From a virus, in IMG/VR virus record IMGVR_UViG_3300025395_000048, positions 1 to 20,584 of that record: a stretch of DNA of 20,584 nucleotides. One strand, given 5' to 3'. A program made the translations under genes and the position numbers. This document shows positions 1 through 17,496 of the stretch, piece by piece. Numbering within the stretch: the stretch's first letter is position 1; each line of letters starts with the position of its first letter. The notes under the pieces were generated by a model. It was given only the letters and a program-made list of their open reading frames with translations. It was not told the DNA's origin and made no database searches.

Positions 1-205
1 TCCTGAATTCGATCTTAATGTGCTACCTACTCGTTGGAAGAAAATGGTAGAATCAAATACTAAGATTGATTCATGGAAGAAATTATATACCAAATTAAAG
101 AAATCTGAATTGAGTTATAGATTTCCTTTTAAATCTTGGAAACAAGATAAAAAGTCTTTAAGTCATATATCTAGAAAATCAAAGATTCTTCTATATTTAT
201 GCTAA
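1..205 (+). CDS. C-terminal fragment of an unrecognised protein (runs in from left edge)
   Basis: An open frame enters from the left edge (first complete codon at base 2) and ends at TAA 203-205, giving about 67 residues. The visible part is very basic and Trp-rich, with repeated Lys-Lys pairs and Trp-Lys pairs, and ends in a short hydrophobic stretch finishing in Cys. No family is recognised. The frame is open back to the edge, so the first ATG-like position inside the window need not be the real start. An AT-rich hairpin with a T-run overlaps the stop codon and may end its transcript. Coding status rests on the open frame and the termination context only. Confidence 0.5.
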   Translation, partial: PEFDLNVLPTRWKKMVESNTKIDSWKKLYTKLKKSELSYRFPFKSWKQDKKSLSHISRKSKILLYLC

Positions 206-228
206 CTCTACAATAGCATACCGTTTTT
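198..228 (+). terminator. Possible weak rho-independent terminator
   Basis: TATGCTA (198-204) pairs with TAGCATA (214-220) around a 9-nt loop and is followed by CCG and five T. The stem has only two G:C pairs, so strength is doubtful. Its position over the stop codon of the upstream gene supports the call. Confidence 0.3.
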
Positions 229-294
229 CGTTAACTATACTAGGCAAACAATTTACGTTTTGTTTTTCGTAGGATATTATTTTCATATCATTTA

Positions 295-528
295 TTAATC
301 AATGTTAACATCTCTTTCCGAAACATTAGCGAGAATTTCTTCGTCCGTTGATTCACCAGAAAGAATTGCTGCAATTTCCTTTTCAATTCTTTTTGCTTCT
401 TCACCAAATGCCTTACTTACTGACTTCTTTTTACTCTTAATAGCAGCCAAATCCTCGTTCAATCGAAGAATTTTAAATGCCTTTTCAGTTTCTGTTGTAT
501 CTCTGTTTGTATTTGCGTTTGTTGTCAT
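295..528 (-). CDS. Small hypothetical charged protein (77 aa)
   Basis: ATG at 526-528, stop TAA at 295-297. The N-terminus is Thr/Asn-rich and probably disordered. Residues 15-60 are a Lys/Glu/Ala-rich stretch likely to form a helix or coiled coil, and the C-terminus is acidic. No family recognised. A longer frame back to a TTG near 600 exists, but a promoter-like pair (540-567) lies inside it, so the ATG at 528 is preferred. There is no Shine-Dalgarno sequence; the predicted transcript would carry only a few leader bases. The gene is divergent from the HNH gene at 594 and convergent with the fragment ending at 205. Confidence 0.6.
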   Translation of the reverse strand: MTTNANTNRDTTETEKAFKILRLNEDLAAIKSKKKSVSKAFGEEAKRIEKEIAAILSGESTDEEILANVSERDVNID

Positions 529-539
529 AATTTGAGATA

Positions 540-567
540 ATATTACACTATATTTTCCGGTTGTCAA
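540..567 (-). promoter_or_regulatory. Sigma70-like promoter for the gene at 528
   Basis: On the minus strand TTGACA (562-567) and TAATAT (540-545) are separated by 16 bp. The ATG lies 11 nt beyond the -10 box, leaving a leader of about 5 nt. Confidence 0.6.
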
Positions 568-580
568 TTTTTCGGAAGAA

Positions 581-588
581 GATAAATA
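581..588 (+). promoter_or_regulatory. T4-late-like promoter box GATAAATA
   Basis: The box ends 5 nt before the GTG start at 594 and resembles the T4 late -10 element TATAAATA. With T4 geometry, transcription would begin at or next to the G of GTG. Confidence 0.5.
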
Positions 589-593
589 AAATT

Positions 594-887
594 GTGGCAA
601 ATAATCGCAAAGCTCAGAAGAAATTAAACTTATCGGGAAATGGTATTTGTGAGATTTGCAAAGAACATCAATTTTTAGTAGAACATCATATAAGAGGAAG
701 AAAAATTAAAAACCCGCATGCTCAATCAAACATTGCTAATATTTGCGAAAATTGCCACAAAAAGGTTCATCATGGAATAATTGTTATCGAAAATCGACAC
801 CTAACAACGAACGGATATGTTTTAATTTGGCATTACTACAAGGATGAATCGATCACAAATAATAATGCCAAACCATATCTATACTAA
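594..887 (+). CDS. Small HNH-type endonuclease-like protein (97 aa)
   Basis: Read from GTG at 594, which sits 5 nt after a late-like box. The longer frame from a TTG at 561 would put that box inside the coding region and is rejected. The protein has the zinc-binding HNH layout: CEIC near residue 23, then EHHIRGR with the His-His pair of the first strand, an Asn about 18 residues later, and CENCHKKVHH carrying the second Cys pair and final His residues. Such small HNH proteins in T4-like phages are often free-standing homing nucleases, and some act in packaging or recombination; the sequence does not choose between these. It stops at TAA 885-887, overlapping the convergent phosphoesterase gene by 9 bp. 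Confidence 0.8.
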   Translation: MANNRKAQKKLNLSGNGICEICKEHQFLVEHHIRGRKIKNPHAQSNIANICENCHKKVHHGIIVIENRHLTTNGYVLIWHYYKDESITNNNAKPYLY

Positions 888-1628
888 AAGAGATTCAAGA
901 TAATCATTCACTTTAATTGTTGAAAATACCCCATCTTCAATAATTCCATGATAATTTCCTGAACAATCAATACAATGCGATTCTCCAAGCGCATGTTTTT
1001 TGTTTGGAACATACTCTGAACGTGGAAGTTTGTCCGGGGTATGTCCAACAATTTGCTTGAAGTTTGGAATAGGTTTTAATTCTGTGCTCCAATGCGCCCA
1101 AGTAATGCCTCCAATCGGTTGTCTTCCTCCACGGTATCTTCCTGCACACAAAACAGGATCATAAACTTCCATTTCCGCATTTTTTAAAGCGCGATCACAC
1201 ATATTTAAAATATGTTCTTCATTCATACCAAGAACTGGATGCTCAAAAACATATTTCGTGATTCCAGCATGAGAAAGCCAAAATCCTTGTGTTTTGTGTA
1301 TCAATTTGAACTTTTTCCAATCTTCTTTTGTCAAAACTTCATTAATTACTTCACATTTCTCTGGTGAAAATCCTGAACACCACAAACTTCCATTATTAGG
1401 AAACATATATGCCAGATCATGATTCCCAGGAATGAAAATATATTTAGGATTATGTAGAATAGACTTTAACCATAGAGCAGTATTTCTATTACTATCTATG
1501 GAATCGTTAAAATCATCGAAGTGATCCCCTAAAAATACAATTTCATCATAATCTTTTCCAAATTTATCTAAAAATACAGAAATAGGTTCAAAATGTGTGT
1601 GGATATCCGCGATTAGTAAAGTTTTCAT
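879..1628 (-). CDS. Calcineurin-like metallophosphoesterase (249 aa)
   Basis: A complete two-metal phosphoesterase signature is visible in order: DIH (Asp8, His10), GDHFDD (Asp35), GNHD (Asn69-Asp71), SHAG (His120) and VGHTP near residue 193. These residues bind the catalytic Mn/Fe ions in the PPP/calcineurin superfamily. Size and layout fit a single-domain serine/threonine phosphatase or a diadenosine-tetraphosphatase-like enzyme, as in phage lambda; the true substrate is unknown. ATG 1626-1628 lies 6 nt after a sigma70-like -10 box. The stop is TAG, which argues that amber is a real terminator in this phage. The 3' end overlaps the HNH gene on the other strand. Confidence 0.9.
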   Translation of the reverse strand: MKTLLIADIHTHFEPISVFLDKFGKDYDEIVFLGDHFDDFNDSIDSNRNTALWLKSILHNPKYIFIPGNHDLAYMFPNNGSLWCSGFSPEKCEVINEVLTKEDWKKFKLIHKTQGFWLSHAGITKYVFEHPVLGMNEEHILNMCDRALKNAEMEVYDPVLCAGRYRGGRQPIGGITWAHWSTELKPIPNFKQIVGHTPDKLPRSEYVPNKKHALGESHCIDCSGNYHGIIEDGVFSTIKVNDYLESLLV

Positions 1629-1634
1629 GCTTGT

Positions 1635-1662
1635 ATATTACTAAAAATCCCACGAATGTCAA
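1635..1662 (-). promoter_or_regulatory. Sigma70-like promoter for the phosphoesterase gene
   Basis: TTGACA (1657-1662) and TAATAT (1635-1640) on the minus strand, 16-bp spacer. The ATG begins 6 nt after the -10 box, so the expected first transcribed base is about the A of ATG. Confidence 0.65.
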
Positions 1663-1850
1663 CATAAATTCCCCCATTTATCGACAGGAATCGAAGAATC
1701 CACTCTAAAATCTACTGGAACGCAACATTCTCCGCAATTTGAGCACGATTCATTACTTGGAGAATAACAATCTCTACATTTTTCTTCCTATTCTTTGCCA
1801 CAATCATCACATTTAAAAATTCTCCATCCTTGTCGAGATTTTAGGTCCAT
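1659..1850 (-). pseudogene. Zinc-ribbon protein gene interrupted by an in-frame amber codon
   Basis: The frame starts at ATG 1848-1850, overlapping the last 10 bases of the preceding gene, and ends at TGA 1659-1661. It would encode 63 residues but for a TAG at codon 21 (1788-1790). Both halves look coding. The first ends GWRIFKCDDCGKE and the second begins EEKCRDC, followed by CSNCGECC and VDKWGNLC, giving three Cys-x2-Cys pairs of a small double zinc ribbon. Related phage zinc ribbons, from memory, have Trp after such a CGxE, so a TGG-to-TAG change is the simplest explanation. Alternatives are a sequencing error, readthrough or a suppressor tRNA. Only 20 residues would be made by normal decoding. 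Confidence 0.65.
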
Positions 1851-2326
1851 AGATATCCTCTTAATTCGATTAATTCTTTATAATAGAACGTATTATGATC
1901 AAATATATATTTTTCGTAATACCAATATTGTTCATCGTTATTAGAATCTAGGAATTCATCCGATAATTTTTTATATTTGGCTCGTTCTCTTGTGACCCAA
2001 TAATAAACATCTCTTAAACGTAGAAAATCATCATAACGATCTTCTTTATAACTAATAAATATATCTTTTCCTCCCCATCTTTTTTTATATTCTTCGTCAG
2101 TTAAGTTTTCAGAAGCTTCAATATCTTTAATTTGATCAAATAGTCCATTTTCGTCTTCAACAAAGGAAACAATAGCAGCATCCAAGAATTTTTCCATAAT
2201 TCCGTCTATATCTTCCCATGTTTTAGGGACAACTTTACGTAATTCTTGATGTTGTGGAAAAATCTCACATTTAACCTTATACCAAAAATTCGAAACCTTA
2301 TATTTGATGTAACTTGCAATAATCAT
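1841..2326 (-). CDS. Conserved phage protein of unknown function (161 aa)
   Basis: ATG at 2324-2326, chosen over an in-frame TTG at 2332 because it lies exactly 6 nt after a promoter-like -10 box. The N-terminal 20 residues are aromatic and basic; the rest is charged, rich in Trp, Tyr and Asp/Glu, and helical. It has a KTWEDIDGIMEKF motif near residue 35 and ends IELRGYLWT. This ending and the Trp/Tyr pattern match a family of phage proteins I recall as widespread but without a known role. The stop overlaps the start of the zinc-ribbon frame by 10 bp, so the two were probably translated together. Confidence 0.75.
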   Translation of the reverse strand: MIIASYIKYKVSNFWYKVKCEIFPQHQELRKVVPKTWEDIDGIMEKFLDAAIVSFVEDENGLFDQIKDIEASENLTDEEYKKRWGGKDIFISYKEDRYDDFLRLRDVYYWVTRERAKYKKLSDEFLDSNNDEQYWYYEKYIFDHNTFYYKELIELRGYLWT

Positions 2327-2332
2327 GATCAA

Positions 2333-2360
2333 GTTATATCACAAAAATGAAACTTTGCAA
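2333..2360 (-). promoter_or_regulatory. Sigma70-like extended -10 promoter for the gene at 2326
   Basis: On the minus strand TTGCAA (2355-2360) and TATAAC (2333-2338), 16-bp spacer, with TGA just before the -10 box (extended -10). The ATG starts 6 nt after the box, the same geometry as at 1628. Confidence 0.55.
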
Positions 2361-2369
2361 GAAAATTAT

Positions 2370-2744
2370 TTATTTTTGTGGAGGATTTGTAGATAACGAA
2401 GGAACAGAAGTATCACCATTCACTATTTTATTGAATTCCACCATTGTTTTATCACCAATCCATCCATCAACCTTCAAATCCGAACCAGTTTTATTAAGAG
2501 CAGTCTGGATATCTTTTGCATATTGAGTTAACCAATGATTTGTAACATAATTTACTAATACCATCAATAACCCCCAAATTGTTGTCACTATCATCGCTTG
2601 GTTTGAAGGATCAATCAAAAATGGAGCTAAAAATGGAACGGATGCAGAAATTTTCATAACTGCTGCTGCAACTAAAATCGTAATAAATCCAATTAATTTA
2701 CCACCCAATTTGCTTACTAAAAATTGTATAAGAGCATCATTCAT
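2370..2744 (-). CDS. Two-TM holin-like protein with peptidoglycan-binding-like tail (124 aa)
   Basis: Two hydrophobic segments are visible, about residues 16-44 (GFITILVAAAVMKI onward) and 49-67 (AMIVTTIWGLLMVLVNYV). The C-terminal part, residues 72-110, reads like a PG_binding_1 repeat: IQTALNK followed by LKVDGWIGDKT and a final hydrophobic helix. The last 15 residues are Ser/Pro-rich. A small two-TM protein with a wall-binding tail fits a holin or a membrane anchor for lysis, but no endolysin is adjacent; the 3D lipoprotein at 13365 is the only other envelope candidate here. It shares an intergenic region with the divergent CCA-enzyme gene. Confidence 0.65.
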   Translation of the reverse strand: MNDALIQFLVSKLGGKLIGFITILVAAAVMKISASVPFLAPFLIDPSNQAMIVTTIWGLLMVLVNYVTNHWLTQYAKDIQTALNKTGSDLKVDGWIGDKTMVEFNKIVNGDTSVPSLSTNPPQK

Positions 2745-2751
2745 ATGAAAA

Positions 2752-2759
2752 TACTTAAC
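2752..2759 (-). promoter_or_regulatory. Weak late-like box GTTAAGTA
   Basis: A one-base variant of the box found at other starts, ending 7 nt before the ATG at 2744. It is the only off-consensus member, so the call is tentative. Confidence 0.3.
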
Positions 2760-2779
2760 TAGAATTGTTGAATTTTTTC

Positions 2780-2787
2780 GTTAAATA
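2780..2787 (+). promoter_or_regulatory. T4-late-like box GTTAAATA
   Basis: Ends 6 nt before the ATG at 2794. No Shine-Dalgarno sequence lies between box and start. Confidence 0.5.
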
Positions 2788-2793
2788 ACTGAT

Positions 2794-2826
2794 ATGATTA
2801 GTTTTAAACAGTTTGTTCAAGAAGCT
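2794..2826 (+). other. Possible capsid-targeting peptide with prohead-protease site
   Basis: Residues 1-11 (MISFKQFVQEA) match the pattern of T4 internal proteins, which begin MKTYQEFIAEA and are cut by gp21 after the Glu of a (L/I)xE site. Here the cut would fall after Glu10 (VQE|A). The match is in pattern (Met, aromatic, basic/Gln, Phe, hydrophobic, x, Glu-Ala). Function is inferred. Confidence 0.45.
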
Positions 2827-4311
2827 TTAGTAACAAAAACACTAGAGAATTGGCATGATATATTAGAAAAAAACGAATATTTAAAGATTGCAACTGAACT
2901 TTTGAGTGATATCGAAAAACTTGGTGGTGAAGCATTAATTGTTGGTGGTGCAGTAAGAGATTTATTACTTGGAAAAATACCCAAGGATGTTGATTTGGCT
3001 ACTAATTGTCCAGTGAAAACTTTAGAAGCAAATTTTCATACAAATGATATAGGAAAGTCAAAAGATTTCGGAATCGTTAATATTTCTTACAAAGGATATG
3101 AATTTGAAGTAGCGAATTTTCGGACTGATGCAAAAACAAGTAATGGCAGACATCCAGACTCTGTAAATATCGTAAATTCTTTTGAAGAGGATTCTAAACG
3201 TCGAGATATAACTTTCAATGCATTAGGATTGACAAAAGATGGAGTTATTTTAGATTATCAAGGTGGCATCGAAGATTTAAACAATAAAATCATCAAAACT
3301 GTAGGTAATGCAAAGGAACGATTCATAGAGGATGGACTTAGGCTAGTAAGAATTTTGCGATTTTCTGCTAAAATGGGATTTACTATTGATCCTGATACAA
3401 AAGCCGCAGTTATTGAGTTAAAACACCTTACACATAACATATCCTCTGAAAGAATCAGGGATGAATTATATAAAGCAGCAACAAGTGGAAATTCTTTAGC
3501 GAACTTTATCGAACATTTAGATGACATTGGATTATTACAAGACTTATTGCCAGAATTAAAAGCATTACAGGGCAAAAAACATTTTCATTTGCATCATGTC
3601 GAGGGAGCAAAAGTAAAAAATAAGATTACTGGACAACTAAAACCGTTTGATATAGAAAATCCTGAACATCAAGATACTACAAAACATGAAATAATACAAG
3701 GAGATGCTTATGATCACACCATAGCAGCAATAAGAGCATCTAAAGAAACCGATCCTGTTCATAACTTAGCAATAATGCTGCATGACGTGGGTAAAGCAAC
3801 AACACATAAAGAAGAAATTGAAGGCAAACATTCATATCACGGACACGAAAATGAATTATATTTGGTTGATGCCATTGCAACTCGATTAAAACTTCCTAAT
3901 AAAGACAAAGAAGCGATAAAATTTGCTATGGAACATCATATGAAGGCACATAAGATCAAAGAACTTAATAAAAATAAGATTCTTGCACTTCGTCAGAATC
4001 CAAATTGGCCTGTTTTAAAATCTACGATATACTCAGATGAAGCTTCTCGTGGAAAGCCTTTATTTAATGAAGAAGAATTCGAGGATAAAATGAACTACAT
4101 CGAACAAATATACAATAAATTTGGAGAAAGTGCTGCATTTGAAAAAAGAATGTCAGAATTAATCACTGGAAAGATGATTATGGAGTTGATACCAGGAATT
4201 AAAGGCACGGATATTGGAAGAATTAAAGAAATAGTTCGTCAATGGATAGTAGAAAACGATTTTGACGTAACAGCAAACCAAGTGAAAGATAAAATAATAT
4301 CACTTAAATAA
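2794..4311 (+). CDS. cca: CCA-adding tRNA nucleotidyltransferase with HD domain (505 aa)
   Basis: The enzyme adds or repairs the 3' CCA of tRNAs using CTP and ATP. The class II nucleotidyltransferase core is clear: GGAVRDLLLG (51-60), DVDLAT (65-70, metal-binding aspartates), then RRDITFNAL and the ERFIEDGLRLVRILRF helix that follows in this family. A C-terminal HD phosphohydrolase-type domain follows with YDHT, LHDVGK (His330-Asp331) and MEHHMKAH, as in the HD-bearing bacterial enzymes. At 505 residues it is longer than the roughly 410-residue E. coli enzyme, partly from an insertion around 265-300. The first residues, MISFKQFVQEA, look like the capsid-targeting peptide of T4 internal proteins. 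No tRNA gene lies in the window. Confidence 0.9.
   Translation: MISFKQFVQEALVTKTLENWHDILEKNEYLKIATELLSDIEKLGGEALIVGGAVRDLLLGKIPKDVDLATNCPVKTLEANFHTNDIGKSKDFGIVNISYKGYEFEVANFRTDAKTSNGRHPDSVNIVNSFEEDSKRRDITFNALGLTKDGVILDYQGGIEDLNNKIIKTVGNAKERFIEDGLRLVRILRFSAKMGFTIDPDTKAAVIELKHLTHNISSERIRDELYKAATSGNSLANFIEHLDDIGLLQDLLPELKALQGKKHFHLHHVEGAKVKNKITGQLKPFDIENPEHQDTTKHEIIQGDAYDHTIAAIRASKETDPVHNLAIMLHDVGKATTHKEEIEGKHSYHGHENELYLVDAIATRLKLPNKDKEAIKFAMEHHMKAHKIKELNKNKILALRQNPNWPVLKSTIYSDEASRGKPLFNEEEFEDKMNYIEQIYNKFGESAAFEKRMSELITGKMIMELIPGIKGTDIGRIKEIVRQWIVENDFDVTANQVKDKIISLK
4303..4310 (+). promoter_or_regulatory. T4-late-like box CTTAAATA
   Basis: Overlaps the stop codon of the CCA gene and ends 6 nt before the ATG at 4317. 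Confidence 0.45.
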
Positions 4312-4316
4312 TATAA

Positions 4317-5456
4317 ATGAGAGACACGCCCTTCCAATTTGAGGTAGAGAATTTAATCGCACAATTTATTTCTGCGATGGATGATATTATTGTGAAGAGA
4401 TATAATGCTAATAGAGAAGCGCAAGATCAGTTATTAGTCAGGATGTTATATTCACCGAAAGAAAGAGTTTTGCTGGATTTGGTAGATAAAGCACAGAACA
4501 TACAGCTTCCAGTGGTTGCCATTTCTATTGCGTCTATTGCTAGGGATCAATCAAGAGTATTCAATAAAATACATGGGTCTAATTATGCATCTTCAAACAC
4601 GAGAGTTGCAGGAAAATTACCACAACCCGTTCCTATTAACATTACAGTAAATTTTTCTATTTTAACTAGATACCAAAAAGATATGGATCAAATTTTAAGC
4701 AATTTTATACCATACTTTGATCCATATATTACATTATCTTGGAGAATTCCTGATATGCAAAATCAGGAGATTAGAAGCACCGTAGAATGGTCAAATAGTG
4801 TTGCGTTGAATTACCCTCTTGCGCAAAATGTTCCGGCTACTACTATTGCAAGATTGGCGGGAGATACATCATTTACTATTAAAGGATGGTTGTTTAAATC
4901 AATACCTGATACTAATAATGGTGGTGGTGATCCATTAATATACACAATATACACCAATTTTTATGCATTATGTTCAATTACTGGTTACGATTCTACAATA
5001 CCAAAAGATTCTGAATATTGGGAAGAAAAAATAATAACAGTCCCTAATATTAATGTATATTCATTATCAGCAACAACATTAAGCGCAGATACCGCATATT
5101 TTTATAATAATGTATATATAGACAATACAATCTTTGCGGAATATGGAGTTTTCGATACTTTATCAGCAAATAGTATAAGTGCTACAAAATTCTATGGTGA
5201 TGGAAGTGGATTAATAAATTTACAAACAAACATTAAAAAATTCTCACAAGTTATTGGTGATGGATCAGCAACAACATATACAGTAACCCATAATTTTAGC
5301 ACATTAAACGCATTAACACAAATATATGATAATAATACCGGAATAGTTGTATATCCTACGATCCAAAATATAGATCAAAACAACACACAGATATATTTCA
5401 AAAACGCTCCTGCTTTAAGTGCATATAAAGTTGTAATGATGTCATATTTTAAATAA
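4317..5456 (+). CDS. 15: gp15-like tail sheath stabiliser/terminator with adhesin-like extension (379 aa)
   Basis: Residues 1-235 correspond to T4 gp15, the ring that caps the contractile tail and joins it to the neck. The matching order is: a YSPKERVLLDLVDKAQ segment (T4 has ASKEHFMMKLNKW), a central VNFSILTRYQKDMDQI followed by LSNFIPYFDPYI (T4: YELSIFTRYEDDMFQI, then ILPYFQPHF), VEWSNSVALNY, FTIKGWLF and IYTNFYA. Residues from about 236 to 379 have no T4 counterpart. They contain a fibre-type FYGDGSGLINL motif and a beta-rich HNFSTLNALTQIYDN module. The same module forms the whole of the next gene. The extension could decorate the neck or tail; whether it is cleaved or displayed is unknown. 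Confidence 0.8.
   Translation: MRDTPFQFEVENLIAQFISAMDDIIVKRYNANREAQDQLLVRMLYSPKERVLLDLVDKAQNIQLPVVAISIASIARDQSRVFNKIHGSNYASSNTRVAGKLPQPVPINITVNFSILTRYQKDMDQILSNFIPYFDPYITLSWRIPDMQNQEIRSTVEWSNSVALNYPLAQNVPATTIARLAGDTSFTIKGWLFKSIPDTNNGGGDPLIYTIYTNFYALCSITGYDSTIPKDSEYWEEKIITVPNINVYSLSATTLSADTAYFYNNVYIDNTIFAEYGVFDTLSANSISATKFYGDGSGLINLQTNIKKFSQVIGDGSATTYTVTHNFSTLNALTQIYDNNTGIVVYPTIQNIDQNNTQIYFKNAPALSAYKVVMMSYFK
5061..5456 (+). repeat. Diverged direct duplication, copy 1 (second copy 5521-5903)
   Basis: The 3' third of the gp15-like gene and nearly all of the next gene encode the same module. Shared protein landmarks in order are YGVF(D/N)TLSANSIS, GDGSGL(I/T)N(L), QVIGDG, (T/I)xHNF, QIYDN, YPTIQNIDQNNT and PALSAYKV. 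DNA identity is still visible in the last 80 bases. Confidence 0.8.
5448..5455 (+). promoter_or_regulatory. T4-late-like box TTTAAATA
   Basis: Overlaps the end of the gp15-like gene and ends 4 nt before the ATG at 5460. Confidence 0.4.
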
Positions 5457-5459
5457 TTT

Positions 5460-5906
5460 ATGAATTTAAACGAAGAACTTTTCGAAAATATAATCAATTT
5501 GCAAAATTTAGAGTTTGAATCTCTTAGTGCAAAGTATATCTATGTTAGTGGAAATGCTAATATCGTTAATGCAACGATACACAACACACTTTCTGCTAGA
5601 TATGGTGTTTTTAATACATTATCCGCAAATAGCATAAGTTCAACTAATTTTTTGGGGGATGGAAGTGGATTAACAAACTTAGTAATCGATACTAGTGGAT
5701 TTTTACAAGTTATTGGAGATGGTATTTCAACTGATTATATCATAAATCACAATTTTAATACACCAAATACAATAATTCAAATATACGACAACGTAACAGA
5801 AACCGTTATATATCCTACAATTCAAAATATAGATCAAAACAACACACTAATACATTTTAAAAATCCTCCAGCATTAAGCGCATATAAAGTTCTCATTTTA
5901 GTTTGA
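5460..5906 (+). CDS. Stand-alone copy of the gp15 extension; putative fibre or neck decoration protein (148 aa)
   Basis: After a short acidic N-terminus (MNLNEELFENIINLQ) the protein aligns along its length with residues 245-379 of the upstream gp15-like protein. It has NTLSANSISSTNFLGDGSGL, then QVIGDG, the HNFNTPNTIIQIYDN strand region and IYPTIQNIDQNNT. These modules, with a GDGSGL turn and a beta-sandwich, are typical of phage fibres and tail decorations. It begins 4 nt after the upstream stop and ends at TGA, 26 nt before the long fibre gene, whose N-terminus carries the same GDGS motif. The likely origin is duplication of the gp15 3' end, or a split of an ancestral fusion. Confidence 0.7.
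   Translation: MNLNEELFENIINLQNLEFESLSAKYIYVSGNANIVNATIHNTLSARYGVFNTLSANSISSTNFLGDGSGLTNLVIDTSGFLQVIGDGISTDYIINHNFNTPNTIIQIYDNVTETVIYPTIQNIDQNNTLIHFKNPPALSAYKVLILV
5521..5903 (+). repeat. Diverged direct duplication, copy 2 (first copy 5061-5456)
   Basis: See the first copy for the shared landmarks. This copy has its own short N-terminal leader and translation start. Confidence 0.8.
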
Positions 5907-5912
5907 TTATAG

Positions 5913-5920
5913 GATAAATA
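5913..5920 (+). promoter_or_regulatory. T4-late-like box GATAAATA
   Basis: Ends 12 nt before the ATG at 5933, leaving a leader of about 7 nt by T4 geometry. Confidence 0.5.
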
Positions 5921-5932
5921 ACAATATATACT

Positions 5933-8900
5933 ATGGCTTTAGATTTTTTAGATGATTTAATATCAACCAGTTTAATAAGTGCGCAGAATTTAGCCTCTCA
6001 AGATGTGAGTGCTAGTGGGTTCTATTATGGTGATGGAAGCAATCTAATAAATGTTAAAGATGTTGTCATAAGAACATTTGTAAGTTCTGCATCTTCTGAT
6101 TGGGAAACTGCATATACAAATTTGGTTTCTAATAGTGCAGCGTATTTAAGTGCTACGGATTTGTCTTTCTTAAGTGTATCTGGCAATTGGAATAATACGT
6201 TCTCTAATGTTCAAAGTAATTCCGCTAATTGGAATTCTGGATATACATATGCAAATACAAACAGTGCAGGAAATATCGCTGTTAATACAACAGTCATATC
6301 AAATTCCGCTAATTGGAACTCTGCATATACAAATTTGGTTTCTAATAGTGCAGCGTATTTAAGTGCTACTGATTTAACTTTCTTGAGTGTATCGGGTAAT
6401 TGGAATGCGGCGTATACATATGTAAGTTCTAATAGCGCAGCAAATAATAATACAAATACTACCGTAAATTCTAATTCCGCTAATTGGAATACTGGATATA
6501 CATATGGAACGATATATTCATTAAATTCAGCAAATCCGACATTTTCCACAATTACAGTAAATGGGTCTGCGTTAATTGGTTCTATGGAAATTGTTGGTGA
6601 TGCGCATATCCAAGGAAATTTAACATTAACTGGTAGCGCAACATACATTAACACAACAGTTCAAATGACTAGTGCAATGAGCATAGTCAATAATGGAACT
6701 GGTCCGGCATTGAGTGTAACACAAAATGGCAATCAACAAGTAGCTGCATTTTATGATGGTAGTTATCCTGCATTAATAGTTGATGGTAGCAATCTAGTAA
6801 AAGGATATGTGGGAATAGGAACGGTTAATCCAAATACTGATTTAACAGTTATCGGAGAAATTAGTGCAACTAACACTATTTACGCAAGTTCATATTTAGG
6901 AGGGAATACCAGTAACTGGAATAGTGCTTATACAAATTTGGTTTCTAATAGTGCTGCTTATTTAAGTGCTACTGATTTGTCTTTCTTAAGTGTATCCAGT
7001 AACTGGAATAGTGCTTATACAAATTTGGTTTCTAATAGTGCTGCTTATCTAAGTGCTACTGATTTGTCTTTCTTAAGTGTATCCAGTAACTGGAATAATA
7101 CAACAACTACAGTAAAATCTAATAGTGCAAATTGGAATAGTGCTTATACAAATTTGGTTTCTAATAGTGCTGCTTATTTAAGTGCTACTGATTTGTCTTT
7201 CTTAAGCGTCTCTTCAAACTGGAATACTGGTTATGCTTATTCTACTGCTTATAATCTAAGTGCTTCTAATTATAATAATACCTTCTCTACCGTTCAAAGT
7301 AATAGTGCGAATTGGATTTTAAATACCACAACAATATCAGGGGTAAATGGGCTATCGGGTGGTGGTAATTTATCAACAAACCAAACACTTTCTTTGGATT
7401 TTACCAGATCAAATATTTGGACTGGACAACAAACATTCAATACTACTAATGCGTCAACAGTAGGGAGTATAATTAAAGGGACAACATCACAGACAGCAGA
7501 TTTATTACAATTTCAAAATAGTGCAGGTTCAGTAATGCAAAAAATCAAGGCAGACGGAACAACAACCATAATAGGAACATCTGCTACAGAAACGCCGATA
7601 TTGGGGTCTGAATTGTTGACTACTGCTCAATGGACTTCAGCAAATTGGACTGGAAATTTCACAACTGGATTTTCTCATATATCTTCAGCAACAATCGATT
7701 CATTAGTAAGTAATATATCCGCCGTAAAATCTTTATATTATACATTAAATATAACAATTTCAAATAGAACAGCGGGATCAGTAACTATGAATTTTGGTGG
7801 ATTATCATATCCAACCATAATATCTTCTAATATATATGCAGATATATCAACATCCACATCACCATTTATTATAATACCAACTAACGATTTTTCTGGAACT
7901 GTTATTGTATCCGTAAAACAAATAATAGCCCCATCCAATCCAATTTTATCGGTTATAGATAGTTTAGGAAATACCATAAATGAAATAAGAACTGGTGCAT
8001 CAACACGATATAGTACATTTATAGGAGTCGCTGCTGGCGGATATCATACAAAAGTATTATTTCCTGTAGGCGCATCAAACAATGCATTTGGTTATACTGC
8101 ATTACAACATCTTACTATGGGTACACAAAATGATGCTTTTGGTTCTGGAGCAGGAACGAGTATTACTTCAGGAAATAATAATGTTTGTTTTGGGTATTTT
8201 GCTGGAAATGGTATTACCACAGGTGGAGATAATGTATGTTTAGGCGCATATTCTGCACCAATAAATAATGGGAGCTATAATATATCTATAGGAGCATATT
8301 CATCACAAAGCAACACTACTGGAGGATATAATACATCAATTGGTAATTGTGCAAGTAATAAAAATACTGTTGGTAATTTTAATGTATCTATGGGAAATGG
8401 AAGTTTATTTTCAAACCTTAGTGGAGGTTTCAATATAGCATTAGGGAACACATCATTATATACCAGTCTTGGTAATAATAATATAGGACTTGGCGCACAA
8501 GCAGGGTATTTTTGGACTGGTTCTAATATGTTATTTGTTGATTCGGTTGCTAATTACAATAGAAAAACTGTAGCAGATAATCTATCAGCATCAATTATTA
8601 CTGGTGTTATGGCGGTAAGCCCCGTTAATCAAATTCTCACATTCAATGCGTTAGTTGGTATTAATGCACAATCACCTTCTGCACAATTCCAAATAAATCC
8701 CATAACAACGTCAACAGTCGGACAGATTATCAGTTCTATATCAGGACAAACAGCGGATTTATTACAATTTAGAAACAATGCGGGAACAATATTAGCAAAC
8801 ATTAATAATAGTGGTGCGTTATCCGCAGCAAGTATAACTAAAACTGGTGGAACTGCTTCACAATTCCTTAAAGCGGATGGTAGTGTCGATAGTAATACAT

Positions 8901-9196
8901 ATTTGACATCAAGTGGTGGATTAACATTAGCATATACAGCACAAACTGCAAATTATGGAATACAATCTACTGATTATCTAATAAATTGCACAACAAATTC
9001 ATTTAGTGTTACGTTGCCATCAGCTACGAGTATTGCAGGTAAAGTGTATATAATCAAAAATTCTGGAACTGGAAACATTACAATATTAACGACATCATCA
9101 CAAACTATAGATGGACAATCTAGTGGGTATTGGATTATATCTAACAAAAATTCGATGGAACTAATGTCTGATGGTGCAAATTGGATAATAACGTAA
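5933..9196 (+). CDS. Large repetitive tail fibre protein (1087 aa)
   Basis: A modular receptor-binding fibre. Residues 1-45 share the YYGDGSNLINV motif with the two upstream genes and may be the attachment end. Residues about 50-450 are a shaft of Asn-Trp-Asn and Ser-Asn-Ser-Ala repeats, including five 29-residue units. A VNGLSGGGNLSTNQTLSL motif follows near 470, as in many phage fibres. Residues about 700-870 are a YadA-head-like run of turns (NNVCFGYFAG, NISIGAYSS, NTSIGNCAS, NIALGNTSL, NIGLGAQAG), which in trimeric adhesins form a left-handed beta-roll. The C-terminus has a KADGSVDSNTYL linker and a beta-sandwich tip (TLPSATSIAGKVYIIKNSG) ending SDGANWIIT. No chaperone or peptidase domain is seen. 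Codon use (AT-rich, Ser/Asn/Thr-heavy) fits a structural gene. Confidence 0.9.
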   Translation: MALDFLDDLISTSLISAQNLASQDVSASGFYYGDGSNLINVKDVVIRTFVSSASSDWETAYTNLVSNSAAYLSATDLSFLSVSGNWNNTFSNVQSNSANWNSGYTYANTNSAGNIAVNTTVISNSANWNSAYTNLVSNSAAYLSATDLTFLSVSGNWNAAYTYVSSNSAANNNTNTTVNSNSANWNTGYTYGTIYSLNSANPTFSTITVNGSALIGSMEIVGDAHIQGNLTLTGSATYINTTVQMTSAMSIVNNGTGPALSVTQNGNQQVAAFYDGSYPALIVDGSNLVKGYVGIGTVNPNTDLTVIGEISATNTIYASSYLGGNTSNWNSAYTNLVSNSAAYLSATDLSFLSVSSNWNSAYTNLVSNSAAYLSATDLSFLSVSSNWNNTTTTVKSNSANWNSAYTNLVSNSAAYLSATDLSFLSVSSNWNTGYAYSTAYNLSASNYNNTFSTVQSNSANWILNTTTISGVNGLSGGGNLSTNQTLSLDFTRSNIWTGQQTFNTTNASTVGSIIKGTTSQTADLLQFQNSAGSVMQKIKADGTTTIIGTSATETPILGSELLTTAQWTSANWTGNFTTGFSHISSATIDSLVSNISAVKSLYYTLNITISNRTAGSVTMNFGGLSYPTIISSNIYADISTSTSPFIIIPTNDFSGTVIVSVKQIIAPSNPILSVIDSLGNTINEIRTGASTRYSTFIGVAAGGYHTKVLFPVGASNNAFGYTALQHLTMGTQNDAFGSGAGTSITSGNNNVCFGYFAGNGITTGGDNVCLGAYSAPINNGSYNISIGAYSSQSNTTGGYNTSIGNCASNKNTVGNFNVSMGNGSLFSNLSGGFNIALGNTSLYTSLGNNNIGLGAQAGYFWTGSNMLFVDSVANYNRKTVADNLSASIITGVMAVSPVNQILTFNALVGINAQSPSAQFQINPITTSTVGQIISSISGQTADLLQFRNNAGTILANINNSGALSAASITKTGGTASQFLKADGSVDSNTYLTSSGGLTLAYTAQTANYGIQSTDYLINCTTNSFSVTLPSATSIAGKVYIIKNSGTGNITILTTSSQTIDGQSSGYWIISNKNSMELMSDGANWIIT
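6914..7216 (+). repeat. Nearly identical 87-bp fibre repeats
   Basis: Units at 6914-7000, 7001-7087 and 7130-7216 encode the 29-residue motif NWNSAYTNLVSNSAAYLSAT followed by DLSFLSVSS. The first two are in direct tandem and almost identical in DNA. Two more diverged units lie near 6095-6181 and 6315-6401. All are multiples of three, so gain or loss keeps the frame. Confidence 0.9.
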
Positions 9197-10132: not shown

Positions 10133-12475
10133 ATGATACAGAAACCTTACGCACCCGCCGCAATACCATCAGGAGGACAATACCCACAAACACAGGGATT
10201 TCCACAGACTTCTCTATTAGGCGCATTTGTTTCTAAATTACCTTACGCATATCAGATTATTGATACAATGGTAAGAAAAAATCCAAAATATGAGATTTTT
10301 AGAGATGTAACACCAAGAAGAGATGATTTAATTGGCGATGAATCTATTTTTATATCACAACCAAACGATCCAAATCTCGCTGGTAATCCTTCTGGTAATA
10401 TAATAATAAATAAAGATTATCAAGCTTTTGTTTACGCTAATGTCGATAAAGATAAAACAAATCGTTTGATGGATTATCGAAGAATGTCCTCTTATGCTGA
10501 AATGTCGGATTGTTTAGATGAAATTTGCGACGAATGTATTGTAAAAGACGAAAATGATAATATCGCAACTTTCCAATTAAGAGGCGAATACTCACAAGAA
10601 GCAAAAGAAAAAGTAGAGAAGGAATTTAAAAGATTCGTAAACATTTTCGATTTAGAAGATTCAGGATGGGAATATTTTAGACAGTTTTTAATTGACGGTG
10701 AAGTATTCTTTGAAAATATTATAGACGAAGAACGTCCTGAATTGGGTATTGTTGGTGTTGTGAATATTCCTTGTGAGTTGATAAATCCTGTATATGCAAA
10801 CACACAAAATGAAATAATAAAAGGATATTTACTAAACAAACCAATAATCCAACCAGTAAATAGCATAAACAAACAAAACAAAGAAGAATTGTTGTTTCTA
10901 CAAAAGAGTCAAGTTACCTATGTGCATTCCGGTATTTGGAACGAATTTAAAACCATTCGTTTGCCATATATAGACAATGCAAAACGAGCTTATAGACAAT
11001 TATCATTAATAGAAGATAGTATTGTTATATATCGATTAGTAAGAGCACCTGAACGTTTAGTATTCAAAGTTTTTACAGGAAATATGCCAGCACCCAAGGC
11101 AGAAGCATATTTAAAACGCCTCATGCAGCAGTATTGGTCTAGAAAAAATTACGATACTACAAATGGAGGAACGGGACCGGGTGGAGGACGAGTAACTAAT
11201 GTATACGATCCACAGAGTATGTTGGATTCTTATTGGTTCCCAAAAGATGCACAAGGTAATGGAACTGATGTAACTACGTTACCTGGTGGATGTTTAGCAA
11301 TGGATACAAAAATTCCATTATTAGATGGCAGAACATTAACATTAACCGAACTAACAAAAGAATACAATGAAGGAAAACAGAATTGGGTATATAGCACAAA
11401 TCCAGATAATGGAGAAATAGTTCCTGGATTAATTTCATGGGCTGGTATAACACAAAAATCTGCAAAAGTTATGGAATTGACTTTTGATAATGGAAAAACA
11501 TTAATTGTTACCCCTGATCATAAATTCCCAATTTTAGGAAAAGGGAAAGTTGAAGCTAAAGATTTGATAATTGGTGAAAGTATGATTCCGTTCTATACTA
11601 AAGAAGAACCCACGAATAACAATCGATGCTTAATATCTGTAAAATACTTAGATAATCATATTGAAGTTGGAACCCTAACTATTGATAAAGAAGAAGAATA
11701 CCATAACTATCACACTTTTGCGACAGATTGTGGGGTATTCACTTATAATAGTAATTTGGGTCAGCTTGATGATCTAAATTATTTCCTTAAAAAACTATAT
11801 AAAGCAATGAAGGTTCCTGCTAATCGTTTTATTACTGATGCAGGTGGCGCAGCAAAATTCACGGATGGTACAGAAATAACTAGAGAGGAATTACGTTTTG
11901 CGCGGTATATTATTCGTATACAGAGACAATTTGCTACTAGTATTCGTGATTCTTTCATAGTTCACTTAAAATTAAAGAAACTTTGGAAAGAATTAAAGCT
12001 TCGTGAACGTGCAATTAATGTAGAAATGAACGTTCCAACTTCTTTCATGGCAATGAGAGAACAAGAACTCTTAAAACTTAAATTTGAAAACTTTGGAACC
12101 GCAACACAGAACCAATCAATGGCACCTTCTTATGCACAAAAGTATTATTTGGGATTAACGGATGAACAGATGCAGGAAAATAGAGAATGGTTAAGAAAAG
12201 ATGCTGCATTAGAATGGGAATTGACACAAATTAAGGCAAGTGGTTCAAATTTCAGAGAACAAATTGCGGCAGCAGCAGGACAAGCAACACCAGCAGGAGG
12301 TTCTGAAGGTGGAATGGGTGGAGGAGGAGGCGCATCAGGAGGAGAAATACCACCAGAAGCAGGAGCATCAGAAACACCACCTGAATTTGGATCAGGAGAT
12401 GTAGCACCAGAAGTAGGAACAGCACCAGAGGCTACAGAAACGCCGGAAACCCCACCCGCAACTCCTACAGCATAA
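10133..12475 (+). CDS. 20: gp20-like portal vertex protein precursor containing an intein (780 aa; 627 after splicing)
   Basis: The dodecameric portal forms the DNA entry/exit vertex and starts prohead assembly. T4 gp20 features are visible: MSSYAEMSDCLDEICDECIV near 120-140, the SYWFPKDAQGNGTDVTTLPG segment before residue 385, then SNLGQLDDLNYFLKKLYKAM and the DGTEITREELRFARYI region (T4 has TTLPGASNMSDMDD at the junction). A 153-residue intein (387-539) interrupts this conserved spot, so the joined sequence reads TTLPGG-SNLGQLDD. The last 75 residues are an unusual Gly/Pro/Glu/Ala-rich low-complexity tail not found in T4 gp20. The portal keeps its frame through the intein, so splicing is presumably efficient. 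Confidence 0.95.
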   Translation: MIQKPYAPAAIPSGGQYPQTQGFPQTSLLGAFVSKLPYAYQIIDTMVRKNPKYEIFRDVTPRRDDLIGDESIFISQPNDPNLAGNPSGNIIINKDYQAFVYANVDKDKTNRLMDYRRMSSYAEMSDCLDEICDECIVKDENDNIATFQLRGEYSQEAKEKVEKEFKRFVNIFDLEDSGWEYFRQFLIDGEVFFENIIDEERPELGIVGVVNIPCELINPVYANTQNEIIKGYLLNKPIIQPVNSINKQNKEELLFLQKSQVTYVHSGIWNEFKTIRLPYIDNAKRAYRQLSLIEDSIVIYRLVRAPERLVFKVFTGNMPAPKAEAYLKRLMQQYWSRKNYDTTNGGTGPGGGRVTNVYDPQSMLDSYWFPKDAQGNGTDVTTLPGGCLAMDTKIPLLDGRTLTLTELTKEYNEGKQNWVYSTNPDNGEIVPGLISWAGITQKSAKVMELTFDNGKTLIVTPDHKFPILGKGKVEAKDLIIGESMIPFYTKEEPTNNNRCLISVKYLDNHIEVGTLTIDKEEEYHNYHTFATDCGVFTYNSNLGQLDDLNYFLKKLYKAMKVPANRFITDAGGAAKFTDGTEITREELRFARYIIRIQRQFATSIRDSFIVHLKLKKLWKELKLRERAINVEMNVPTSFMAMREQELLKLKFENFGTATQNQSMAPSYAQKYYLGLTDEQMQENREWLRKDAALEWELTQIKASGSNFREQIAAAAGQATPAGGSEGGMGGGGGASGGEIPPEAGASETPPEFGSGDVAPEVGTAPEATETPETPPATPTA
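11291..11749 (+). mobile_element. Mini-intein in the portal protein (153 aa)
   Basis: The element begins with Cys (block A CLAMDTKIPLLDG, residues 387-399 of the precursor) and ends with Asn (GVFTYN, residue 539), followed by Ser as the +1 extein nucleophile. Block B is ILVTP-like: TLIVTPDHKF, with the Thr-x-x-His pair. Block F is the LTIDKEEEYHNYHTF region. There is no room or motif for a LAGLIDADG or HNH endonuclease, so it is a mini-intein. The usual penultimate His of block G is Tyr here (YN instead of HN), which may alter Asn cyclisation. Insertion is exactly at Gly|Ser in the conserved portal motif. Confidence 0.93.
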
Positions 12476-12492: not shown

Positions 12493-13356
12493 ATGGCAGT
12501 TTTACCGTCAGGTTCAGGATTTCGTGGAGGAACATCACTAAATACAAGCATTTCGTGTTATGATGATCTAGCTTTACGTATTAAACATCAATTAGGATAT
12601 CCACTAATCAACATTGAAATATCGAATGAACAATTATTTGATAATATTTCAAATGCTATCGAATATTTTACTAAATGGGCTGGATATACTGAAGAATTCT
12701 TAGTGTTTGATACCAAGAAATATGTTAGTGGGGTGGGTATTGATATTGCAACACTAATAAATCAAACACCAGAAATGTATAGTAGTATGGTTTCAGGACT
12801 TTCTACAGGCTTTGATTATGATTTGAATGTTTATCGAAAGGTTGTTGATTGTTTTTCATTTGATATGGGGGAATCTACTGGTATTAACACACTTTTCTCA
12901 ATGGAACAAGCAATGGCACAACAAATTTATTCTTCCTATATGATTGGCAACTTCGGATTTGATCTTACAAGTTGGCAAGTATTAAAAGGATGGATTGATA
13001 CTAGAAAAAGAGTATTAGCACAAACCCCACACTTTAGATTCGATAATAGAACACAAATATTGCGAATTATTCCTGAACCAATACCAACAGAATCATATTT
13101 AGGACTTGTTGGATGCTACTTAGAACGTCCTATTAGAGATTTAGTAAGAGAACTGTGGGTGCAAAAATATTCTTTGGCTTTAAGTCGTATTTCTGTTGGT
13201 GCCGTACGTGAGAAATTTTCCGGGACCACCTTATTCGGTGGAGGAACTATTAGCACTTCTATATTAGCACAAGGATTTCTCGAAAAAGATGCACTCGAAA
13301 AAGAATTAATGAACTCTTATCAGGACAATTTACCCCCCTTATTTTTTCTCGGATGA
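12493..13356 (+). CDS. Putative neck/head-completion protein, gp13-like (287 aa)
   Basis: Residues 25-65 (LALRIKHQLGYPLINIEISN, then EQLFDNISNAIEYFTKWAGY) match the opening pattern of T4-like neck proteins of the gp13 group: an RIK..LG.P...E...EQ...NI..AIEYF stretch. A conserved-looking GWIDTRKRVLAQTPHFRFDN segment and a beta-rich RILRIIPEP region follow, then an RELWVQKYSLALSRI helix and a Gly-rich segment. In T4 gp13 binds the portal side of the neck with gp14, which fits the place directly after the portal. Assignment rests on pattern and context and is less firm than for gp20-gp23. It converges on the 3D lipoprotein gene with only 8 bp between stops. Confidence 0.55.
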   Translation: MAVLPSGSGFRGGTSLNTSISCYDDLALRIKHQLGYPLINIEISNEQLFDNISNAIEYFTKWAGYTEEFLVFDTKKYVSGVGIDIATLINQTPEMYSSMVSGLSTGFDYDLNVYRKVVDCFSFDMGESTGINTLFSMEQAMAQQIYSSYMIGNFGFDLTSWQVLKGWIDTRKRVLAQTPHFRFDNRTQILRIIPEPIPTESYLGLVGCYLERPIRDLVRELWVQKYSLALSRISVGAVREKFSGTTLFGGGTISTSILAQGFLEKDALEKELMNSYQDNLPPLFFLG

Positions 13357-13364
13357 TTTTAAAA

Positions 13365-13874
13365 TTAAATTTTATCTTTCAATATATAAACTTCTGTGTA
13401 ATCACCAATTGCTTCTTCTAATGCATTAAGTTTATGCATAGCATCTTTTCTTGAAGTTACATTCACATAAACATCAAAAACAAAAGTCTTTCCATGTGAT
13501 GCTTTCTTTTTTGTTACATCCGTTCCCCTATCTTCAATAGTAAATTCACCATCACCTATTTTACCATCCAAAGCTGGAATAATTATTTTAGTTCCAAAGG
13601 GAAATTTTGGATGTGCGGCGATTGTTATTCCTTCTTTTGCCCTTCCTTTAATAGATGATGCGATTCTATCCCCTCCAGCTTCTCTTTTATGATAAAACGT
13701 AATTCGAGCAACCATTTTTTGTTGAATTGCTGATAAAGGAGGAACGGAATTCTGATGCATATGTTTTTTAAACTCTTTATAGTTAAATGCCTTGTTATTA
13801 CCACTTTTCATAGAAGCACAAGAGCATAAAAAGAGTGATAACATCGATATTAATATGTAATTTATTGTTTTCAT
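13365..13874 (-). CDS. Lipoprotein with 3D (double-psi beta-barrel) domain (169 aa)
   Basis: A classic lipoprotein signal is present: basic start MKTINY, a hydrophobic core ISMLSLFLC and a lipobox LCSC with the lipid-bearing Cys at residue 19. After a linker, residues 55-150 have the 3D-domain layout: ARITFYHKREAGGD, then AAHPKFPFGTKIIIP, GEFTIEDRGTDVTKKKAS and FDVYV, with the aspartates expected for the barrel active site of MltA/RlpA-type proteins. A peptidoglycan-acting role, in lysis or envelope remodelling, is likely. It is the only minus-strand gene among the head genes and carries its own late-like box, so it is probably expressed late. Confidence 0.85.
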   Translation of the reverse strand: MKTINYILISMLSLFLCSCASMKSGNNKAFNYKEFKKHMHQNSVPPLSAIQQKMVARITFYHKREAGGDRIASSIKGRAKEGITIAAHPKFPFGTKIIIPALDGKIGDGEFTIEDRGTDVTKKKASHGKTFVFDVYVNVTSRKDAMHKLNALEEAIGDYTEVYILKDKI

Positions 13875-16041: not shown

Positions 16042-17496
16042 ATGGAAAATCTTCTACACATCGATAAAGTGAGAGCAGAACAACTTGTTGAAAAGTGGAG
16101 TCCAGTATTGGATTACACTTCAGACAAAGTTTCCGCTATTACCGACGATCATACAAGACTCAACACCGCTATCTTGCTTGAAAACCAAGAGAAATGGTGC
16201 TTCGAAGCGGGTAATACTAGTGGTGCAGGTGGTGTTTTCGGTTCTGGTGGCAGCAATGCAACTCAGTTCTCTAATGACACTTATGCTACTGGCGATGCTC
16301 GTTTACCTAAAGTTCTGATTCCAATGATTCGTCGTACTTTCCCCGAACTCATCACAAATGAGATCGTGGGTGTGCAGCCAATGACAGGTCCAGTCGGACT
16401 TGCCTTTGCTTTGCGCTACAAGTACGAAGCATCTCCTCTTGGTTATTCTGGTGGGTCTACCGATGGTAGCTTATCAAATAGCGTTGTAGGTGGAGCACAG
16501 AACATTAGTCAGGGAGCAGAATTAGGTTACAATTACTTGAACACCGCTTTCACTGGTACATCCAGTCAGGCGTTGACAGGTGATTCTACTTATTTCGTTA
16601 ACCCTGTCGAAGACACTGGTGTTGCACAGTTATTGAGCCAATTTGAATTAACTTCAAACATCCCTCAAATGACTGTATCTTTCGAGAAAACTGCTGTTGA
16701 AGCAGGAACTCGTAGGTTAGCTGCTCGTTGGTCTGTCGAACTCGAACAAGACTTGAAGAACATGAATGGTATTGATATCGACAGCGAGTTGACAAACGCG
16801 ATGTCCTATGAAATCCAAGCGGAAATCGACAGAGAAATGATCATGAGAATGATTCAGGTCTGTTTGAACGCTGGAGCTAACATTGGATATAGCATTTGGA
16901 ATGCTGCAAGTGCTGACGGTCGTTGGTCTGGAGAACGTGCTCGTGACTTCTACAACAGAATTGTTGTTGAAGCTAACAGAGTCGCAATCCGCAACCGCCG
17001 TGGTGCTGCAAATTTCATAATTGCAACTCCTCGTATCTGCGCTATTCTTGAAACACTACAGAATTTTTCTTGGCAGTCCGTAAATGGTAATGTTAACACA
17101 ACACCAGTCGGTATTGCTAAGGTAGGTTCTATTGGTGGTAGATTCCAAATTTATCGTGATACAAGAACAGAAGCTCAAATCAATCAGGGAACAGCACCTT
17201 ATGGTGCTCCTGGTAAGAATGCTAGTTACCACCCACAAGGTCGTGCTGCAATCGATTACGCTCTATTAGGTTATAAAGGACCTGAGTATTATGATACTGG
17301 AATCGTTTATTGTCCGTATATTCCTGTGATGGTTCAGCGCACAGTTGGACCGAATGACTTCTCTCCAAGAGTTGGTTTAATGACACGTTATGGTGTTGTT
17401 GATCATATCTTTGGTGCAAATCTATATTATCATTTGGTAATATGCCAAGGTTTGGGAACTGCATTCACACCGGGACAAACGGCAGTATACCTCTAA
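16042..17496 (+). CDS. 23: gp23-like major capsid protein precursor (484 aa)
   Basis: The HK97-fold shell protein of T4-like phages. Diagnostic segments are ILLENQEKW near residue 45, LIPMIRRTFPELITNEIVGV followed by QPMTGPVGLAFALRYKY near 90-130, GTRRLAARWSVELEQDLKNM near 225 and the IYRDTRTEAQ region. The N-terminal 55 residues probably form the delta-domain removed by the protease, with a candidate cut after Glu55 (CFE|AG); the T4 site has LTE|A. It differs from neighbours: no TAAATA box, a C-free purine-rich leader with AAGGA 17 nt upstream, and more G+C-rich codons typical of a highly expressed gene. A strong terminator follows. Confidence 0.96.
   Translation: MENLLHIDKVRAEQLVEKWSPVLDYTSDKVSAITDDHTRLNTAILLENQEKWCFEAGNTSGAGGVFGSGGSNATQFSNDTYATGDARLPKVLIPMIRRTFPELITNEIVGVQPMTGPVGLAFALRYKYEASPLGYSGGSTDGSLSNSVVGGAQNISQGAELGYNYLNTAFTGTSSQALTGDSTYFVNPVEDTGVAQLLSQFELTSNIPQMTVSFEKTAVEAGTRRLAARWSVELEQDLKNMNGIDIDSELTNAMSYEIQAEIDREMIMRMIQVCLNAGANIGYSIWNAASADGRWSGERARDFYNRIVVEANRVAIRNRRGAANFIIATPRICAILETLQNFSWQSVNGNVNTTPVGIAKVGSIGGRFQIYRDTRTEAQINQGTAPYGAPGKNASYHPQGRAAIDYALLGYKGPEYYDTGIVYCPYIPVMVQRTVGPNDFSPRVGLMTRYGVVDHIFGANLYYHLVICQGLGTAFTPGQTAVYL

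Follow-up and report, generated by a model that had tools for sequence, protein, structure and literature searches.

A lone amber codon in a zinc-ribbon-like orphan reading frame of a T4-like phage

Introduction

Phages that recode TAG (genetic code 15, TAG read as Gln) carry many in-frame TAG codons, especially in late genes, and avoid TAG as a terminator. Phage accessory genes interrupted by nonsense codons (pseudogenes) present a different picture, in which one in-frame stop lies in a small orphan gene and the standard code is used elsewhere. In-frame stops in prokaryotic genes are described, in the part of PMC7918605 available, as widespread and often associated with dN/dS <1, as tending to be short-lived and as commonest among genes of the mobilome category, and the authors take nearly all of them to be something other than functional recoding. 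A literature search returned no paper on an amber or premature stop codon in a phage zinc-ribbon gene.

The window considered here, which is the whole stretch of DNA analysed, is a 20,584-bp IMG/VR virus record, the genes of which match T4-like phages, and it contains a short Cys-rich open reading frame (ORF) with a single internal TAG. The likeness to phage pseudogenes extends to the single stop, the small orphan gene and the standard code elsewhere; the difference is that the searches described below found no intact relative of the Cys-rich ORF, and loss from an intact ancestor is something that we infer. Code-15 phages such as the crAss-like phages (PMC9523058, in the part available) are similar in that they are large phages with many tRNAs and in-frame TAG, unlike which this phage has one convincing interrupted frame, 13 of 157 ORFs ending in TAG, and no credible CUA tRNA in the ∼120 kb at hand.

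The interrupted reading frame and its locus

Translation of the minus strand from 1850 to 1659 gives MDLKSRQGWRIFKCDDCGKE*EEKCRDCYSPSNESCSNCGECCVPVDFRVDSSIPVDKWGNLC*, a zinc-ribbon-like ORF of 63 codons, delimited by translation, coding score and a Cys-motif control, in which the only internal stop is the TAG of codon 21 (1788..1790, minus strand; context TGTGGCAAAGAA-TAG-GAAGAAAAATGT; identical in locus L002). The first-pass annotation of a zinc-ribbon-like gene with one amber at this codon is thereby borne out, as is its statement that both halves keep Cys-x2-Cys pairs: the nine Cys of the ORF include four CxxC pairs, one upstream of the TAG and three downstream. The first start codon in the 42-codon post-TAG part is a GTG 28 codons in, and the second part is therefore without a start of its own near its beginning.

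Upstream lies a gene for a 163-aa protein (1841..2332, minus strand), the last codons of which (ATGGACCTAA) contain the ATG of the Cys-rich ORF; downstream lies a calcineurin-like phosphoesterase gene (879..1628, minus strand; Pfam accession: PF00149, E=1.3e-10), and the Cys-rich ORF occupies almost all of the gap between the two (1841 to 1628). Its ATG is preceded by AGAGGA, a Shine-Dalgarno-type motif of a kind that is unenriched in this phage (9 of 148 starts, versus 56 of 1000 random ATGs). The closing TGA falls inside the TTGACA hexamer of a promoter-like sequence, TTGACA-16-TAATAT, located before the phosphoesterase gene (1635..1662, minus strand); this is a consensus match only, such sites numbering 19 in window positions 1-3000 versus 16.6 in shuffles.

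Relatives of the 163-aa protein, themselves of unassigned function, were detected (E <= 1e-3) at 24 of the 79 loci that carry a related phosphoesterase, near-copies being present in this set. At locus L144, the phosphoesterase of which is the most similar (identities of 67% for the CCA-adding enzyme, 50% for the phosphoesterase and 56% for an HNH protein), the CCA-adding enzyme and phosphoesterase genes adjoin, and over the 6.7 kb read the Cys-rich ORF, the 163-aa gene and a 124-aa gene are absent between them, an absence that would suit a cargo gene. Elsewhere (G043) the phosphoesterase gene and a gene of the 163-aa family are both retained, separated by two different ORFs. Judged from these gene orders, the place of the Cys-rich ORF is variable among relatives.

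Coding signal and cysteine pattern

Coding signal was scored with a three-periodic Markov model fitted to this phage's ORFs of 120 aa or longer. The 20 codons preceding the TAG obtained 4.0 nats and the 40 codons following it 2.6 nats, with margins of 6.7 and 9.4, respectively, over every other frame; each flank thus scores best in the Cys-rich frame, in keeping with the sense composition claimed at first pass for both halves. Fourteen of 909 stops with long enough flanks were coding on both sides (9 TAA, 3 TGA, 2 TAG), three of them with no start codon among the 10 codons that follow: the TAG of codon 21; the TAA of the overlapping 163-aa gene, the downstream side of which mostly covers that same DNA, read in a different frame; and a TGA lying antisense to the window gene at 5933-9196. 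The remaining TAG has a start codon soon downstream, and the scan of 909 stops with this model gave no other convincing stop-interrupted gene. The frame of the 163-aa gene past its own TAA also scores as coding (3.6 nats), which counts against an easy reading of the locus.

Across ∼120 kb, 12 windows of 63 codons hold at least 8 Cys with at most one stop; other windows among them reach 10-11 Cys, so that the Cys count alone is not unique, and one has three CxxC, four being found only in the Cys-rich ORF. In 20 simulated genomes (first-order Markov), four windows had at least nine Cys, and none of the four had three or more CxxC. These CxxC counts favour the Cys-rich ORF.

Search for relatives

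Searches with tblastn gave no relative of the Cys-rich ORF in phages, at E 1 with the ORF and at E 10 with a 54-aa part of it, and plasmids gave no match at E 10. An IMG/VR peptide-pattern search recovered the same phage only, and degenerate DNA motif searches of IMG/VR recovered nothing or, again, the same phage only; a broader DNA motif drew 31 stretches, its own and 30 others, none of the 30 looking homologous when their translations were read. The only hit in genome contigs, a 23-residue NESCSNCG-type match within an uninterrupted 394-aa Oceanobacillus ORF, was rejected, as was, on reading, a 24-residue match at the end of locus L019 (E 0.30). Sequences of the PDB gave 32 matches, of which the best (E 3.2e-4) is a designed zinc-finger array, where several repeats contribute to the score, and the others include retroviral nucleocapsid knuckles, zinc fingers and PKC C1 domains, all judged to be Cys-pattern matches.

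Relatives were also sought by way of the capsid and phosphoesterase genes. At least 80 capsid relatives were fetched; 48 of these records, many of them fragments, were searched whole and yielded nothing similar to the Cys-rich ORF at E <= 1, and the other 32, mostly shorter, were covered by local tblastn over fetched loci only. Among 28 records, a subset of the 49 made up of the 48 capsid-related records and the phage's own, the phosphoesterase was matched in six and the 163-aa protein in three (E <= 0.01, own phage included). A viral scan yielded 103 phosphoesterase relatives, of which 80 were kept, 79 other than the phage's own; the ∼3 kb around these 79 genes contained no credible relative of the Cys-rich ORF, 11 weak matches lying at E 0.9-4.6.

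Zinc-ribbon likeness and the residue before the probable change

Zinc-ribbon families have two CxxC knuckles about 20 residues apart, a pattern fitted by C14/C17 and C36/C39 of the Cys-rich ORF, and its product would presumably bind zinc. Pfam gave no family above cut-off for the ORF, and PHROG matches were weak. The CxxCG...CxxCG spacing is shared with Zn_ribbon_8 (Pfam accession: PF09723) and DZR (Pfam accession: PF12773), with alignments covering residues 12-42; the ORF differs in scoring 6.7-11.7 bits for Zn_ribbon_8, depending on the residue set at the TAG, against a curated cut-off of 34.4, and 12.6-15.6 bits for DZR against 27.3 (the best, 15.6, with Leu), and in its extra CxxC pairs and tail, which fall outside or between these matches. 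AlphaFold prediction of the read-through protein from the single sequence was poor (mean pLDDT 50.9), and the model was not used.

A TAG codon is one change away from codons for Gln, Lys, Glu, Leu, Ser, Trp and Tyr. Residues were substituted at the TAG and the resulting sub-threshold profile scores compared, the differences being of a few bits. For DZR a match appeared when the residue was Leu (15.6), Trp or Tyr (12.6 each) or Phe, and none with Gln, Lys, Ser or Glu; DUF7836 was listed with Trp (12.9), Tyr and Phe, Trp being the best of the one-step residues; Zn_ribbon_8 ranked Phe (11.7) before Trp (8.9), Leu (8.5), Tyr (8.1), Ser (7.4) and Lys (7.1), Trp thus narrowly leading the one-step residues. 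Leu was favoured over Trp by phrog_28724 (16.8 and 14.5), which barely separated the rest (13.4-14.9), and DUF7835 placed Leu (11.1), Gln (9.3), Lys (9.1) and Ser (8.9) all above Trp (8.0). A hydrophobic residue is the likelier former occupant of codon 21 on these profiles, and Trp a plausible one. As to the Trp-to-stop change proposed at first pass, a single change stands as the simplest cause; Trp specifically is one candidate among several, the sub-threshold profiles being mixed and the searches having found no relative.

Origin of the interruption

The most economical order of explanations places a nonsense mutation first, a sequence variant or error next and low-level readthrough third. 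An ordinary nonsense mutation, disabling an accessory orphan gene that this T4-like phage can do without, is assigned a probability of roughly 0.55. One nonsense change would have turned codon 21 of a small Cys-rich gene into TAG, and translation begun at 1850 would end after 20 residues; since no downstream start occurs until the GTG, the full protein would not be made in useful amounts. The change would be a recent one, and the gene both inactivated and dispensable. In favour of a nonsense mutation, the TAG sits in coding sequence that continues in frame downstream, TAG is an ordinary stop in this phage, no credible CUA tRNA was found in ∼120 kb, and neither a second convincing stop-interrupted gene nor a relative of the ORF came out of the searches; against it, that downstream part still looks coding, with no second lesion visible in the ORF and no decay seen there beyond the one stop, the searches found no relative to supply an intact copy or evidence of relaxed selection, and the occurrence of the same TAG in two records also fits a maintained site. 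As found, the case amounts to one isolated stop in a phage orphan, where only the open downstream frame favours suppression.

Next in order, at well under half that weight, is an error of sequencing or assembly, or the entry of a minority variant into the consensus, with the phage population carrying an intact gene. That the sequence is an IMG/VR record suits this reading; that the change is of substitution type, not a frameshift, argues against it. A second public record, IMGVR_UViG_3300025838_000023 (G001; 106,782 bp), has window positions 1-7076 in common at 100% identity and agrees on the TAG of codon 21, which lowers, and does not remove, an explanation by error: the two records may share reads, the 7,076 bp being without mismatch and both contigs ending at repeats. 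Further copies of window positions 1-215, and of the sequence at the other end of the common stretch, occur in the two records, so that assembly of both contigs probably broke off at repeats and they probably represent the same phage, the genome of which is probably incomplete across the two.

Somewhat more doubtful than an error is low-level UAG readthrough or suppression in the natural host, by which a little full-length protein would be produced (amber-regulated expression). The coding signal carries on past the TAG, and in-frame stops with dN/dS <1 are reported to be widespread in bacterial genes (PMC7918605, in the part available), both of which suit readthrough; against it stand the ordinary use of TAG, the tRNA complement and the RNA structure. 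A simple script applying a non-overlap rule selected 157 ORFs of 80 aa or more, of which 100 end in TAA, 44 in TGA and 13 in TAG; TAG closes both the phosphoesterase gene and an endonuclease-like gene (17539-19152; weak Vsr- and DUF7487-like matches), as the first-pass annotation had stated in holding, correctly, that amber is not globally recoded. Two hallmarks of code 15 are absent: TAG is not avoided as a terminator, the frames of the capsid gene (16042-17496; product sharing 34.6% identity with gp23 of Prochlorococcus phage P-SSM2) and of the T4-type portal gene gp20 (10133-12475) are open under table 11, and a second convincing TAG-interrupted frame was not found.

No CUA-anticodon tRNA was called by ARAGORN at its normal or 95% threshold in G001 and the window (∼120 kb), or at 95% in tRNA regions fetched from five relatives. 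G001 has 14 tRNAs over the Rfam cut-off and 23 by ARAGORN at 95%, or ∼40 candidates when laxer ARAGORN lists are merged by eye. At an ARAGORN threshold of 75%, the window gives two 'Pyl' (CUA) calls, which both overlap protein genes and were not accepted. Nor was a CUA candidate from a custom cloverleaf scan (G001 74,062-73,982): it falls within a 209-aa ORF, and its score does not exceed those of comparable candidates with other anticodons; the scan also gave a plausible CCA (Trp) tRNA (G001 85,551-85,471), which reads UGG, not UAG. RNA folding of window 1800..1700 around the TAG was unremarkable (z = 0.23). The suggestions made at first pass of readthrough or amber suppression at codon 21 thus gained no support from a credible CUA tRNA in ∼120 kb of a probably incomplete phage genome, from an unusual structure or from a second convincing case. 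It is quite improbable that the amber acts as a throttle, with a suppressing or leaky host making a little zinc-ribbon protein and most ribosomes stopping at residue 20. Full-length protein, if shown in an infected cell, would give the case weight as a sign that amber suppression occurs naturally in a host of T4-like phages.

Equally improbable is that the frame encodes nothing, with a Cys pattern owed to chance or to the shadow of the other frame: the lack of relatives in the searches or of a Pfam family above cut-off, the -35-like hexamer overlapping the ORF end and the coding score of the 163-aa frame beyond its TAA would fit, but the CxxC pattern was unmatched in the phage and in the simulations, the start overlaps the upstream gene end as in coupled genes, and the ORF nearly fills its gap.

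Promoter-like sequences, repeats and other features

TATAAT-like hexamers are enriched 0-11 nt before starts (85 sites for 123 genes versus ∼30 expected from all ATGs), and those with a TTGACA-like partner number 18 versus ∼5 expected; examples are found at window 1635-1662 and near the G001 gene start at 55,635 (minus strand). Together with the lack of Shine-Dalgarno enrichment, this suggests that the phage mRNAs may be very short-leader or leaderless, the control being unmatched for the A+T-richness of gene starts. Part of these sites may be T4-type late promoters (TATAAATA). A literature search gave no paper on leaderless mRNAs or Shine-Dalgarno sequences in T4-like phages.

A large tRNA array and a phage-encoded tmRNA (tag ADNTELALAA) are located at G001 73,450-86,750, accompanied in the same phage by the CCA-adding-enzyme-like gene (window 2794-4311). 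The portal gene has an intein-like insert (Pfam accession: PF14890, E 1.5e-7, under the profile cut-off). Downstream of the capsid gene, the endonuclease-like gene adjoins the gene at 19149-20582, and the two look paralogous by eye. A dispersed repeat of ∼215-250 bp occurs in five copies, three ∼98% identical and two ∼85% (window 1-215; G001 13332-13546, 96468-96680, 80141-79937 and 63621-63416), the window contig starting at one of them.
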